Positions 21,457 to 33,207 of a stretch of DNA of 64,000 nt are shown here, piece after piece. This DNA comes from Natrinema caseinilyticum (GTDB lineage Archaea; Halobacteriota; Halobacteria; Halobacteriales; Natrialbaceae), in assembly GCF_024227435.1 (NCBI RefSeq), contig NZ_CP100445.1, positions 2,787,369-2,851,368 on the forward strand, written 5' to 3'. Each line of letters opens with the position of its first letter. Position 1 is the stretch's first letter. The notes beneath the pieces are model-generated. The model was not told where the DNA came from. It saw only the letters and a list, made by a program, of their open reading frames with translations, and searched no databases. The translations under genes and the position numbers were made by a program.

Positions 21457-21538
21457 CGTCCGGGTCCGAACCGCCCGTGTCCGCTATCGCGTCAAACTAC
21501 CACAGCGTTTATGTTTCTCCGGTGGGATGGTTCCCGAT

Positions 21539-22342
21539 ATGGCCAGCCTCAGGGATCTCGGGCTCTCCGAGTACGAAGCTCGAGCCTACCGATCGTTGCT
21601 CAATACCGGCCCCACAACGGCGAAGGAGTTGTCACGAGCGAGTGACGTCCCGATGGGGCGCATCTACGACGTCTTGAACAGCATCGAACAGTACAATCTG
21701 GTCCGGAGTCAGACCGCGAGCCGACCGAAGAAGTACGTCGCCGTGGAGCCGTCGACGGCGCTCGATCGGCTGCTCGACGACAAGAAACGCGAACTCGAGG
21801 AGAAAGCAGATCAGTACGAGTCGATCGTCGACGATCTGGCCGACGAACTCGACGCGGCCGAGCCGGTCGAAGAACAGTTCTGGACCGCCGCCGTCGGCCC
21901 CGAAGAGACGATCGACCTTCTCCTCGAGCGCCTCGCAGCGGCCGACAGCGATATCGTAATGGTCTCCGCGGATCCGGCACCCCAGTGGGACATGCAGGCC
22001 GTCAGTGAGGACGTCAATGCGCAACTCGAGGACGCCCTCGACCGCGGCGTCTCGATCGATCTCTTGATGACCCGCGAGATGGTCGCCTCGCTGTCGGAGG
22101 ACGTAGGCCAGCGCTATCGGGAGACGCTCCAGCAGCGCGACGACTTCGACGTCCGCACGAACGACGACATAACGGGTTCGTTCAACATCATCGACGGTGT
22201 CGAGGTGTGCATTCAGGTGCCGAACCCGCTTTCGTCCGGGGAGGCGTTCGGAATGATCGACCTGAAAGATCCGGAGTTCGCCGCGAACGTCCACGAGGAG
22301 TTCATCCCGCGGTGGAAAGAAGCGGAACCGCTCCAGTTTTAG
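21539..22342 (+). CDS. TrmB-like helix-turn-helix regulator
   Basis: A 267-residue protein with an N-terminal TrmB-type winged helix ([29 protein letters not shown], residues about 3-70), a coiled-coil linker ([25 protein letters not shown]) and a C-terminal PLD-like ligand/dimer domain. It lacks the extra sugar-binding domain of the TrmB at 4481. A TATA-like GTTTATG box lies about 30 bp before ATG 21539, which makes the longer frame starting at 21437 unlikely. Its stop overlaps the stop of mptA by 4 bp on the other strand. Confidence 0.85.
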
Positions 22343-23265: not shown

Positions 23266-23366
23266 TGGCCGCATTCGGGGGAGCGTGCGATTCAACCTTT
23301 CGGAACCCGAAGTCGCCGTGGGGAGCGGTTCGACCCGGTCTCGGTATCGGCTCGCGCCGTCGCTTC

Positions 23367-23400
23367 TTTAAGTGCTTCTGGTCACAAGGTGGAGCTATGA
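23367..23400 (+). repeat. 34-bp box, copy 1
   Basis: Starts TTTAAGTGCTTCTGG and ends GCTATGA. Compared with the other three copies, 27 of 34 positions are invariant in all and there are no gaps. TTTAAG lies about 27-30 bp before the terminal TATGA, the spacing of a haloarchaeal TATA box to a transcript start. The ATG at 23396 in this copy opens a 13-codon frame (MTGDGSSPVPFVR). Confidence 0.85.
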
Positions 23401-23509
23401 CGGGAGACGGTTCCTCTCCGGTACCATTCGTTCGATAGCCACGACGCCGCGTTTCGACCTCTCCGTTCGGTAGCGAGAACCATCTCGGTACCGGAACACG
23501 GGTCGCGAG

Positions 23510-23761
23510 TCACTCGTGCGACTCGAGAGGTGCTCTGCAACCGTCGGCGGGACGAACCACGGACGGGAGGAGAAACGCCGCACCGACGGCGGCGATCGAC
23601 CCGTCCGTGCGGTGCACTGCCAAGACGGCGGCCAGCATCTCGGTGACGTTTTTGTCCGTTTCAGTCGGCTCCAACTCGAACAGTGCTGACTGGAGGGCGG
23701 CCGTTATTATCGTACCCGGTCGATTGTGAATGCGCCGATCGAACTGGTCGCCGGGGTACAC
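23510..23761 (-). CDS. Possible small hypothetical protein
   Basis: An 83-codon frame with good haloarchaeal codon choice (mostly G/C third positions) and a mix of hydrophobic helices and acidic residues (SALFELEPTETDKNV, MLAAVLAVHRTDGSIAAVGA). No family is recognised. It lies between copies 1 and 2 of the 34-bp box, in opposite orientation. It could be a genuine small gene or a fragment; evidence is composition only. Confidence 0.35.
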   Translation of the reverse strand: MYPGDQFDRRIHNRPGTIITAALQSALFELEPTETDKNVTEMLAAVLAVHRTDGSIAAVGAAFLLPSVVRPADGCRAPLESHE

Positions 23762-23881
23762 GTCGGACGTGTTACGGCGGGTCGAAAGTGAACTGGACCC
23801 GCCCGAACGGCACCGCAGGCGACTGTAACTCGAAAGCCCGTTCGATATCGACCGGCGCGCTGTCGTCTCGGCCGTCGTTCG

Positions 23882-23915
23882 TTTAAGTACTTCTGGTCAC
23901 AAGGTCGAGATACGA
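23882..23915 (+). repeat. 34-bp box, copy 2
   Basis: Starts TTTAAGTACTTCTGG and ends GATACGA. It differs from copy 1 at five of 34 positions. Located 515 bp after copy 1 and 170 bp before copy 3, in the same direction. No start codon lies at its downstream end. Confidence 0.85.
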
Positions 23916-24051
23916 CGGGGAGGCGTCGTTCTCGAGTCCCAGAACTGGTGAGCGACGGCCGTGTCCGCCGTGGGCGAACGTCGAGTCCGTCGCCGCCCGG
24001 TTTCGTCGTCGACGGTGGATGGCCGGGCCGAGTCGTGGCCGGCCGCGATTC

Positions 24052-24085
24052 TTTAAGTGCTTCTGGACACAAGGTAAAGCTACGA
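24052..24085 (+). repeat. 34-bp box, copy 3
   Basis: Starts TTTAAGTGCTTCTGG and ends GCTACGA, with the only change inside the GGTCACAAGG core (GGACACAAGG). It ends about 70 bp before the start codon of the nucleotidyltransferase gene, so it could be that gene's promoter with a short leader. Confidence 0.85.
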
Positions 24086-24156
24086 AGGGCATTCGTCACC
24101 CGGTCGACTCACATTTTGAGCACCGATTTCGTCTCTTCCGCCGTCGAGCCACTGCT

Positions 24157-25077
24157 ATGGCGACAGTTCCCGACCACGTTCGAGAGACCGTCGACGACCA
24201 TCTGACCGCGATCGAACGCGAGAACGACGTCGCGGTCGCGCTGGCCGTCGCCCGGGGGAGCCACGCCTGGGGTGCAGCCAGTTCCGACAGCGACTACGAC
24301 GTCGGGTTCGTCTACGTGCCGACCGATCTTCGGCGGTACGCTCACCTCGGCGGCGTAGCCGGGGTGATCGACGCGGAAGACGGCGAGTTCGAGTACCAGG
24401 GCTGGGACGTGCGGACGTTCGCGGGCTTGCTCGTGGATTCGAACGACGGTGCGATCGATCTCCTTCGAAGCCCGATTCGCTATCGCGTCGCGTACGACCC
24501 CGCGGTCCTCGCCGCGTACATCGAGCGGGCGTACAACCCGATCGACCTCTATCACGCGTGGCGCGGGATTGCGACGAACAACTACCGGAAGTACGTCTCT
24601 CACCACCTGGTCCGCACGGACGACGAAATCTTCCCGATCGTCGAGACGGACGGCGATAGTTACGTCGTCGAGACCGACGACGGCACGACGACGGTCGCAG
24701 CCGACGACGACCGGTTTACGGAAACGGCGACGAGACCCACGGTGAAACGAAATCTCACGATCTACCGGGCGGCCATGTCCGCGCGGTATCTGAAAGAAAC
24801 GGGGGAACGCGGCGACCACGACTTGCCGGCGCTCGCGTTCGATCGCTTCCTCTCGAAACAGGCTCCGGCGGTCTTCGCCGACGAACGGATCGAGCGTGCG
24901 AGGGCGTTGCTCGAGCGGAAACGTGCGGGTGAGGGGGCGGCCGTGGTCGGTGACGCGGTTGGACCCGAGTTCGCTCGGCCGCCGCGGCGTATCGACCCTG
25001 CGATCCACGCCTGCGACGGCCCCAGCACGACTCGTATAAACGGGTTCGTCGACGAGCTAATCGACGCGGTCCAGTAA
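24157..25077 (+). CDS. Predicted nucleotidyltransferase (YcgL-type, Pol beta superfamily)
   Basis: A 306-residue protein of the DNA polymerase beta-like nucleotidyltransferase superfamily. The catalytic motif ARGSHAWGAASSDSDYDVGFVYV carries the G-S and D-x-D metal ligands near residues 30-50. The rest (YNPIDLYHAWRGIATNNYRKYV, KRNLTIYRAAMSARYL) resembles YcgL-like predicted nucleotidyltransferases that occur in bacteria, phages and archaea, some tied to RNA repair. Start ATG 24157 fits the domain. Copy 3 of the 34-bp box lies just upstream and copy 4 about 90 bp downstream. Confidence 0.75.
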   Translation: MATVPDHVRETVDDHLTAIERENDVAVALAVARGSHAWGAASSDSDYDVGFVYVPTDLRRYAHLGGVAGVIDAEDGEFEYQGWDVRTFAGLLVDSNDGAIDLLRSPIRYRVAYDPAVLAAYIERAYNPIDLYHAWRGIATNNYRKYVSHHLVRTDDEIFPIVETDGDSYVVETDDGTTTVAADDDRFTETATRPTVKRNLTIYRAAMSARYLKETGERGDHDLPALAFDRFLSKQAPAVFADERIERARALLERKRAGEGAAVVGDAVGPEFARPPRRIDPAIHACDGPSTTRINGFVDELIDAVQ

Positions 25078-25165
25078 CCCGAGCGATCGGTTTCGACAGC
25101 CGACGCGCCGAGCGATTTTGCACCGCGTTCGATCGATCGGCCGTCGCTCCGTTTTCGAGCCGTCG

Positions 25166-25199
25166 TTTAAGTGGTTCTGGTCACAAGGTGAAGCTACGA
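25166..25199 (+). repeat. 34-bp box, copy 4
   Basis: Starts TTTAAGTGGTTCTGG and ends GCTACGA. It lies 1.1 kb after copy 3 and about 195 bp before the RNA polymerase epsilon gene. A T-run at 25362-25366 between the two could end a short transcript from this box or act as the epsilon gene's own promoter. Confidence 0.85.
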
Positions 25200-25393
25200 A
25201 GAGATTCTCGCGACGCCGTCGGACTCGAGAGAGACGCGGGGCTTGCGTATGGCCGCCACGAATCGGTTGCTCGCCGGTGATCGCACGTGATCCGTGTCGA
25301 CCGCGCGGTACCTGTTCGAGTATCTGAACGTCTGGCCGAGACGGTACTGAAAGGAGCGAGCCTTTTTCACGCTCCCCCTCCGAGCGACAGACG

Positions 25394-26164
25394 ATGCAAG
25401 ACGACGGTGCCGACCCTGGTCCACCCACGGCGGGTGACGTGGCCGTAGCGGACGGCGTCGACCCCGACCCCGAACGCGAACGCCGCCTCGAGACGCGGCC
25501 CGGTTCCGGGGCGCTCTCGCGAGCGGACGTGCAGCGCGATTCGTCGGTTCGACGATGGGGCGTCGTCACGCCGAGTGCGACGGTCATCGGCCGCGCAACG
25601 TCGCCCGACGCGGACCTTTCGGAGAGCGTGCGCCGCCTCCACGACGAACAGCACGCGGCGACGCCGGGCTACGGCGAACGCGCCCACCGACTCGATCGAC
25701 TCCGAACGACGCAGGCGCTGTGTAACGCCCTCGAGGTGACGCCCTGGCAGCGCGATTTAGCACTCGGCGTCATGGACGAGATCGACCTCACCGAGTTCGG
25801 CAGCCAGCGTGCGATTCCGAAGGTCGCGCTCGTGGTGATTCGCCACGTCGTCGACGTCGACCGACAGCGGTACTTCGGACTCGACGACATCGACGCGCAG
25901 TCGCTGTCGGCCGACCGGATGGAAGAACTGTTCGCCCAGTACCGGGCCCACGACATCACCGACGACGGAACGTTCAAGCGACTCGCGGCGGACTACGGGC
26001 TCGACACCACGAGCCTGAATCGATTGCGCCGCGTCCTGAAATCGCAACTCGAGGACGATCTCCCGGCCTACGGTCGCAACCCGTACCGCGATCCGAATCT
26101 GCCGGACGTGACGGAGTCGGACGCTGCGGGCGCGGACGCGGCAACGACCGGCGGGCAGAGCTGA
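25394..26164 (+). CDS. Haloarchaeal DNA-directed RNA polymerase subunit epsilon
   Basis: A 256-residue protein. The conserved block (residues about 55-170) with RRWGVVTPSATVIGR, ESVRRLHDEQHA, LRTTQALCNALEV and GSQRAIPKVALVVIRHVVDVDR matches what halobacterial genomes call RNA polymerase subunit epsilon, a lineage-specific polypeptide that copurifies with the enzyme. The helical block is cyclin-like in look. N- and C-terminal tails are acidic and variable. GCCTTTTTC about 30 bp before the ATG may be the promoter. Assignment is from recalled family sequence. Confidence 0.75.
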   Translation: MQDDGADPGPPTAGDVAVADGVDPDPERERRLETRPGSGALSRADVQRDSSVRRWGVVTPSATVIGRATSPDADLSESVRRLHDEQHAATPGYGERAHRLDRLRTTQALCNALEVTPWQRDLALGVMDEIDLTEFGSQRAIPKVALVVIRHVVDVDRQRYFGLDDIDAQSLSADRMEELFAQYRAHDITDDGTFKRLAADYGLDTTSLNRLRRVLKSQLEDDLPAYGRNPYRDPNLPDVTESDAAGADAATTGGQS

Positions 26165-32241: not shown

Positions 32242-33207
32242 ATGGCTAGTCCACCCCGCCAACGTGAACGCGATCCTGAAACGACCGAAAAAACGCAGGA
32301 CCCTGCGGATCGTGAGCGGGTGTGTGACGAGTGTGAGGGGGGAACCCTCGTCAAAAGCGAGGACCAGGGCGAACTCGTCTGCGACCAGTGTGGCCTCATC
32401 GTCGAAGGGTCGAACATCGATCACGGGCCCGAATGGCGCGCCTTCAATCACTCCGAACGGCAGAACAAATCCCGCGTCGGCGCGCCGACGACCCAGACCA
32501 TGCACGACAAGGGACTGACGACGTCCATCGACTGGAAGAACCAGGACGCGTACGGTCGCTCCATCTCCTCTGACAAACGCAACCAGATGCGCCGACTGCG
32601 AAAGTGGCAAGAGCGCATTCGAACCAAAGACGCCGGCGAACGAAACCTGCAGTTCGCCCTCTCCGAGACCGACCGGATGGCATCCTCGCTTGCAATCCCC
32701 CGATCCGTCCGCGAAGTCGCCTGCGTCATGTACCGGCGGGCTCTCGACGAAGACCTCATCCGCGGGCGCTCCATCGAGGGCGTCGCGACCAGTACCCTGT
32801 ACGCCGCCTGCCGCATGGAGGGCATCCCGCGCTCGCTCGAGGAAGTCGCGGCCGTCTCCCGCGTCGAGCGCAAGGAAATCGGTCGCACCTATCGGTACGT
32901 CGCCCAGGAACTCGGCCTCGAGATGGAGCCGGTCAACCCGAAGAAGTACGTCCCGCGCTTTTGCTCCGAACTCGAACTGTCCGAGGAGGTCCAGGCCAAA
33001 GCCAACGAGATCATCGATACGACGACCGAGAAGGGCCTCCTGTCGGGTAAGTCACCGACCGGCTACGCCGCGGCCGCGATCTACGCCGCGTCCTTGCTCT
33101 GTAACGAGAAGAAGACCCAGCGGGAGGTCTCCGACGTCGCGCAGGTGACCGAAGTCACCATCCGAAACCGGTATCAAGAGCAGATCGAAGCGATGGGCAT
33201 TCACTAG
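32242..33207 (+). CDS. Transcription initiation factor TFB
   Basis: A 321-residue TFIIB homologue that bridges TBP-bound promoters and RNA polymerase. The zinc ribbon uses Cys 28, 31, 47 and 50 (CDEC...CDQC). The B-finger/reader [21 protein letters not shown] follows, then two cyclin repeats (about 115-210 and 215-310) and the recognition helix [30 protein letters not shown] about 30 bp before ATG 32242 fits a TATA element with a very short leader. Haloarchaea have several TFBs, so a specific tfb number is not given. Confidence 0.93.

Follow-up and report, generated by a model that had tools for sequence, protein, structure and literature searches.

The 64,000-nucleotide stretch of Natrinema caseinilyticum DNA analysed here (hereafter the window) contains four copies of a promoter-like box, and across the haloarchaea this promoter class matches almost exactly the presence of RNA polymerase subunit epsilon, which gives epsilon a concrete, testable target set. 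The clustering of so distinctive a promoter at the epsilon gene suggests that epsilon is its dedicated reading factor. A description of subunit epsilon dates from 1983, and even now its relevance is called enigmatic (PMC8305020). In Halobacterium, the only organism for which this is known, it co-purifies with RNA polymerase (RNAP) and stimulates native-DNA transcription, and RNAP needs epsilon for efficient transcription of native templates (PMC8305020). In the searchable literature no promoter, target set or fold had been linked with epsilon.

The four copies start at 23367, 23882, 24052 and 25166, all on the + strand and ungapped. They vary at positions 8, 9, 16, 25, 26, 29 and 32 of the 34, the other 27 being invariant. 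A 24-nt pattern applied at up to 3 mismatches matches the window at these four boxes only, with 0.00 matches expected in shuffles, and at the same threshold the whole 4.77-Mb genome holds exactly 4 copies (reversed control 0). A matrix from 397 copies, 4 of which are the window boxes themselves, scores the boxes at 63.5 to 69.1 and the next window site at −26.9, a gap of about 90 bits. The pattern and matrix scans bear out the four ungapped copies with 27 invariant positions reported in the earlier note, while its statement that the surrounding DNA has no common sequence was wrong: 49 nt of the four copies align at 73–86% identity, the immediate flanks also being alike, and across lineages the conserved block covers about 48 bp, from −9 (CCG) to +38 (GGG) when the first T of TTTAAG is counted as 1. 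In this 48-bp form, and all on the + strand, box 1 lies at 23357..23404 (TATA at 23367-23372, presumed start at ~23397-23400), divergent from mptA; box 2 at 23872..23919 (TATA at 23882); box 3 at 24042..24089 (TATA at 24052), 5' of rlaP; and box 4 at 25156..25203 (TATA at 25166), between rlaP and rpoeps.

The consensus derived from 257 copies shows the same anatomy that had been read from the four copies, with a TATA element, a start region and an extra conserved element between them. Upstream, CCG occupies −9 to −7 and YTTC takes the place of the BRE; TTTAAG follows at 1–6, T at 7, G or A at 8, YTCTSG at 10–15 and AYAAG at 18–22, and the start side comprises AG at 27–28, TAYGA at 30–34 and GGG at 36–38 (whole motif TAYGAMGGG). 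In the 257 copies TTTAAG is invariant and TAYGA stands at a fixed distance from it, in keeping with a basal promoter, where a TATA-like element precedes a purine start by about 27–30 bp. This spacing fits archaeal initiation, and transcripts would start at TAYGA. The haloarchaeal basal promoter consists of a BRE (CGAAA), a TATA element (TTWT) and a −10 WW (PMC4983044), which the box resembles in its TATA-like TTTAAG, its AA at about −11 and its initiation spacing of ~30 bp. It differs in that a purine-rich BRE (CGAAA) directly 5' of TATA is absent from the consensus of the 257 copies, in the long fixed element between TATA and start, in conservation that runs into the transcript, and in being confined to epsilon-bearing genomes. 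The literature searched, which takes in a minority of subscription journals, yielded no account of the box, and a search with the core sequence gave one unrelated match.

The earlier note had called for a matrix search of the whole genome and of related haloarchaea. The 24-nt pattern was run at up to 2 mismatches over 392 genomes of the order, and the boxes are kept at matching positions in relatives. They occur in 146 of the 392 genomes and in 35 of 95 genera, with one match in total in the reversed control. A search of the same genomes for epsilon gave 180 strong matches, such that 145 genomes have both, 1 has the box only, 35 have epsilon only and 211 have neither (Fisher p 5e-72, a value that ignores relatedness). 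Relatedness alone does not explain the co-occurrence, since box and epsilon appear and vanish jointly inside two genera, g5 and g38, as well as inside several families; in family f5, strong epsilon is found in a single genome (G245), which is also the only one with boxes. Diverged boxes are held by 29 of the 35 epsilon-only genomes, 27 of them recognised by a relaxed pattern and 2 more (G285 and G312) by boxes at 2–3 mismatches, ~180 nt 5' of epsilon. In the five genomes of genus g65 and in G224 epsilon is present and no box was found. In nine genomes that have no epsilon, or only a remote paralogue, the relaxed pattern found no boxes. In the sole box-positive, epsilon-negative genome (G160), just 327 nt of the contig follow the last box; it breaks off within a transposase-start-like reading frame, where epsilon would be expected. 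This near-perfect co-occurrence adds support to the dedicated regulator that the earlier note had named as one option, with epsilon as the candidate, and another protein of the same distribution could in principle underlie it. A Mantel comparison of epsilon and box divergence (r 0.63, uncorrected for relatedness) was set aside as evidence.

One or more boxes stand near epsilon in 74 of 80 named loci with epsilon homologues, in most cases 5' of it and often on its other side too. The 80 loci include Natrinema, Natrialba, Natronococcus, Halobacterium, Halorussus, Haladaptatus, Halococcus, Halarchaeum, Halocatena, Halosimplex, Halorientalis, Halorhabdus and others, and in distant families the constant neighbour of the box is rpoeps, not rlaP. 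Three genomes of family f6, genus g30 (G061, G077 and G093) have 3–4 epsilon paralogues each, several with a box within ~200 nt. At g65 loci L275, L276, L279 and L281 a dodecin-like gene lies upstream of epsilon in place of the box, and G160 shows at L304 231-724 (− strand) a weak tblastn similarity to epsilon (E 7e-4) that overlaps a box and is possibly a decayed or remote copy.

Most of the plasmid-borne epsilon paralogues examined carry a box variant, even at ~30% identity. Those of Halococcus dombrowskii and Halorussus halophilus are flanked on either side by exact matches to the pattern, and a ~30%-identity paralogue on a Halobacterium hubeiense plasmid has a box with 1 mismatch 230 nt upstream and a TATA-binding-protein gene nearby. 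Remote plasmid paralogues of Natrinema thermotolerans (3 mismatches) and Halarchaeum (4) have upstream variants, and that of Haladaptatus QDMS2 has a variant (4 mismatches) just downstream; the chance rate at up to 4 mismatches is ~0.018 per kb. One Halorussus pelagicus plasmid with a paralogue has no box. In genera g43 and g74, which have remote paralogues only, another variant, TTTAAGTAYTTCTTGCGACAAT, lies just 3' of the paralogue. Viral contigs contain no epsilon, and three exact box-pattern matches in them, which lie in AT-rich DNA and have unlike flanks, were taken as chance. On Halobacterium hubeiense pSTJ003 (L297 1367-3864) the closeness of the TATA-binding-protein gene to a remote epsilon paralogue that has a box of its own is possibly that of a plasmid-borne initiation module.

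The boxes form intergenic tandem arrays, in which same-strand neighbours are 108–149 nt apart in 76 of 104 pairs closer than 400 nt (minimum 108) and the space between boxes is mostly intergenic and has no common reading frame. Of 397 copies thinned for similarity, 282 have UUCU 3' of the box, against 59 in shuffles, and AGC-containing words are enriched above shuffles at positions 57–100. The short unit spacing, the absence of reading frames and the shared UUCU and AGC motifs are the reasons for which we presume small-RNA genes here; the arrays look as tandem short-RNA genes with one promoter each would look, which adds support to the small-RNA family proposed as the other option in the earlier note. 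In the window, and on the + strand, presumed small RNA 1 would occupy 23397..23490 (placed by unit spacing and shared motifs, its 3' end drawn at typical unit length), presumed small RNA 2 23912..24020 and presumed small RNA 4, which begins GAAGAGATTCTCGCG, 25196..25280, the last two with provisional 3' ends. These RNAs may have a function, and their transcribed part diverges fast past the first 25–40 nt, without strong conserved structure. No Rfam covariance model exceeded its gathering score (a sub-threshold sR47 match lies outside the boxes), and no tRNA was found at the boxes. Peptide leaders, suggested by an ATG after some of the boxes, were rejected: most copies have ACG at this site, which is thus not a start codon. 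A 5' hairpin in which the TAYGAM head pairs downstream beats tail-swap controls, yet under a fixed anchor it is found in a minority of copies, and RNAalifold gave 4 pairs, in one orthologous group, so that the hairpin stays a hint.

The earlier note held that copy 3 alone is placed to serve a recognised gene. That copy does precede one, namely rlaP; the gene after copy 4, rpoeps (25394..26164, +), had been missed, and so had the reach of the conserved block into the transcribed region. The rpoeps product is 58–62% identical to plasmid proteins annotated as subunit epsilon, so that, with respect to Halobacterium epsilon (rpoeps, OE_1279R; PMC8305020), the window gene is a homologue of proteins annotated as this subunit. 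Box 4 was considered as the rpoeps promoter and rejected, since a distinct promoter, GAGCGAGCCTTTTTCACGCTCCCCCTCCGAGCGACAGACG (25354..25393, +), sits directly before the ATG, at which it ends with leaderless spacing, and is conserved in 30-odd Natrialbaceae loci. As this separate promoter seems to be an ordinary one, simple autoregulation is not seen.

The core of the rpoeps product (residues 92–222) is predicted to adopt a TFIIB-like cyclin fold, which is a statement about fold and not a proof of ancestry. AlphaFold2 models the core (48 sequences, mean pLDDT 84.9) as a cyclin fold, and TFIIB, Brf2 and cyclins account for every one of the model's best 44 structural matches. The top match is the first repeat of TFIIB (Z 10.0, rmsd 2.5 over 96 residues; first unrelated entry 6.6), TFIIB and cyclins being tied within about 1 Z, and the full-length model agrees (Z 10.3). 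Helical folds easily reach middling Z. Foldseek searches with the epsilon models gave only E-values > 0.1, which are not significant, and sequence searches found no epsilon relatives of known structure. Homology to TFB by sequence was rejected, as neither PF00382 (no match at E up to 10) nor hhalign against 7 TFBs (probability 0.2%, not significant) found kinship. Epsilon has one cyclin repeat, residues 92–222 of 256, where a TFB has two; its N-terminal 75 residues are modelled with low confidence, and a Pfam scan returned no zinc-ribbon domain. Since the fold agrees while the sequence profile and the two repeats do not, we describe epsilon as possibly working like a TFB rather than as a member of that family.

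We consider it probable that epsilon-RNAP reads the box together with TBP, whether or not TFB takes part, and that the family of short RNAs and the rlaP message are its products. Epsilon-RNAP would recognise a BRE-less TATA box plus the fixed element between TATA and start, and would transcribe short non-coding RNAs of roughly 50–110 nt from tandem genes around rpoeps; in Natrialbaceae, rlaP would also be driven by it. Epsilon would then be a TFB-type or sigma-type specificity factor whose single cyclin fold contacts DNA just downstream of TATA. In TFIIB-type factors the upstream DNA contact belongs to the second repeat, and an epsilon that lacks this repeat matches a box that lacks the BRE. 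The first cyclin repeat of TFIIB-type factors and Brf2 contacts DNA just downstream of TATA (PMC4671959), and the cyclin fold matters because this contact site is where the box bears its extra element. Against this reading stand the six genomes with epsilon and no box found (g65 and G224), the non-significant TFB profile and Foldseek comparisons, the seemingly ordinary promoter of rpoeps itself, and the description of epsilon as a general stimulator on native DNA, which taken alone does not suggest a narrow regulon.

It is also conceivable that the box is an operator-containing promoter used by ordinary TBP, TFB and RNAP, with some other regulator binding the element between TATA and start and with epsilon a mere neighbour or target. 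Regulator sites often overlap the region downstream of TATA, and in Natrialbaceae a TrmB-like gene is close by; this gene is, however, missing from boxed clusters outside Natrialbaceae, the element shows none of the dyad symmetry that a dimeric regulator usually needs, and epsilon, the sole family screened in this way, is alone in being known to share the losses of the box and to have it beside plasmid paralogues, so that we regard this explanation as rather unlikely. Still less probable, in our judgement, is that the boxes are decoy or regulatory sites with short abortive units (titrating epsilon-RNAP, for example) whose RNAs have no function of their own. The fast divergence and weak structural conservation of the transcribed part would agree with this, but its UUCU and AGC motifs lie well above shuffles and rlaP follows directly behind a box. 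Scattered copies outside the cluster in several genomes might recall a mobile or dispersed repeat that contains a promoter by accident; this we think very improbable, as no inverted repeat coincides with the boxes, only the 48-bp core is common, positions are kept across genera, and epsilon-free relatives have no boxes.

If epsilon-RNAP does read the box, the system has two familiar counterparts. Brf2 with TBP at Pol III gene-external promoters (PMC4671959) is likewise a cyclin-fold factor at a TATA promoter, with sequence contact just downstream of TATA and small-RNA gene targets; in contrast, epsilon has one cyclin repeat and no detectable sequence relation, and belongs to a single-RNAP organism. 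What bacterial alternative sigma factors would share with epsilon is the dedication of a specificity factor to a promoter class of its own, with a gene-linked target cluster, whereas epsilon is an unrelated protein, its promoter is of TATA type and its targets are apparently mostly non-coding RNAs. Tentatively, and with rather less confidence than in the reading of the box by epsilon-RNAP, we propose a second haloarchaeal initiation system, in which a single-cyclin-fold subunit replaces or supplements TFB, recognises BRE-less promoters by the long element 3' of TATA and is dedicated to a hitherto unrecognised small-RNA family; the system would be plasmid-borne as well and, in some lineages, connected with RNA repair through RlaP. 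If true, archaea would have in it their equivalent of a sigma regulon or of small-RNA transcription by Brf2 and Pol III, an extra TFIIB-fold subunit could redirect archaeal RNAP to BRE-less promoters, and an unstudied small-RNA family would span many haloarchaeal genera, including Halobacterium.

The gene order in the window is a TrmB-like regulator with a DUF7436 domain (21497-22342, +), whose place next to mptA and the boxes is kept in Natrialbaceae, then mptA (to 23264, −), boxes 1–3, rlaP, box 4, rpoeps, a DsbA-like gene and NAD kinase. The rlaP gene (24157..25077, +) encodes an RNA-repair-associated pol-beta nucleotidyltransferase (PF10127, E 1.3e-28, 100.8 bits, cut-off 23), and from the presumed start of box 3 to its start codon a leader of ~75 nt would extend (24082..24156, +), beginning GAAGGGCATTCGTCACCCGG and conserved in the genus. 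All 29 genomes of the genus have an rlaP homologue, with boxes in flanking DNA. The predicted task of RlaP is to replace nucleotides that an RNA has lost, ahead of its ligation (PMC7824862), and one may speculate that the rlaP link hints at a role in RNA repair, in Natrialbaceae only. Elsewhere in the window, 32644-33189 encodes the cyclin repeats of a TFB gene, and 23 TFIIB-repeat matches in the genome correspond to about a dozen TFB genes. Some Natrialbaceae have a second conserved array (L235 528-1452, L237 2554-3537), with 2–3 boxes 5' of a GNAT-like acetyltransferase gene that is followed by thiE-like and thiM-like genes.
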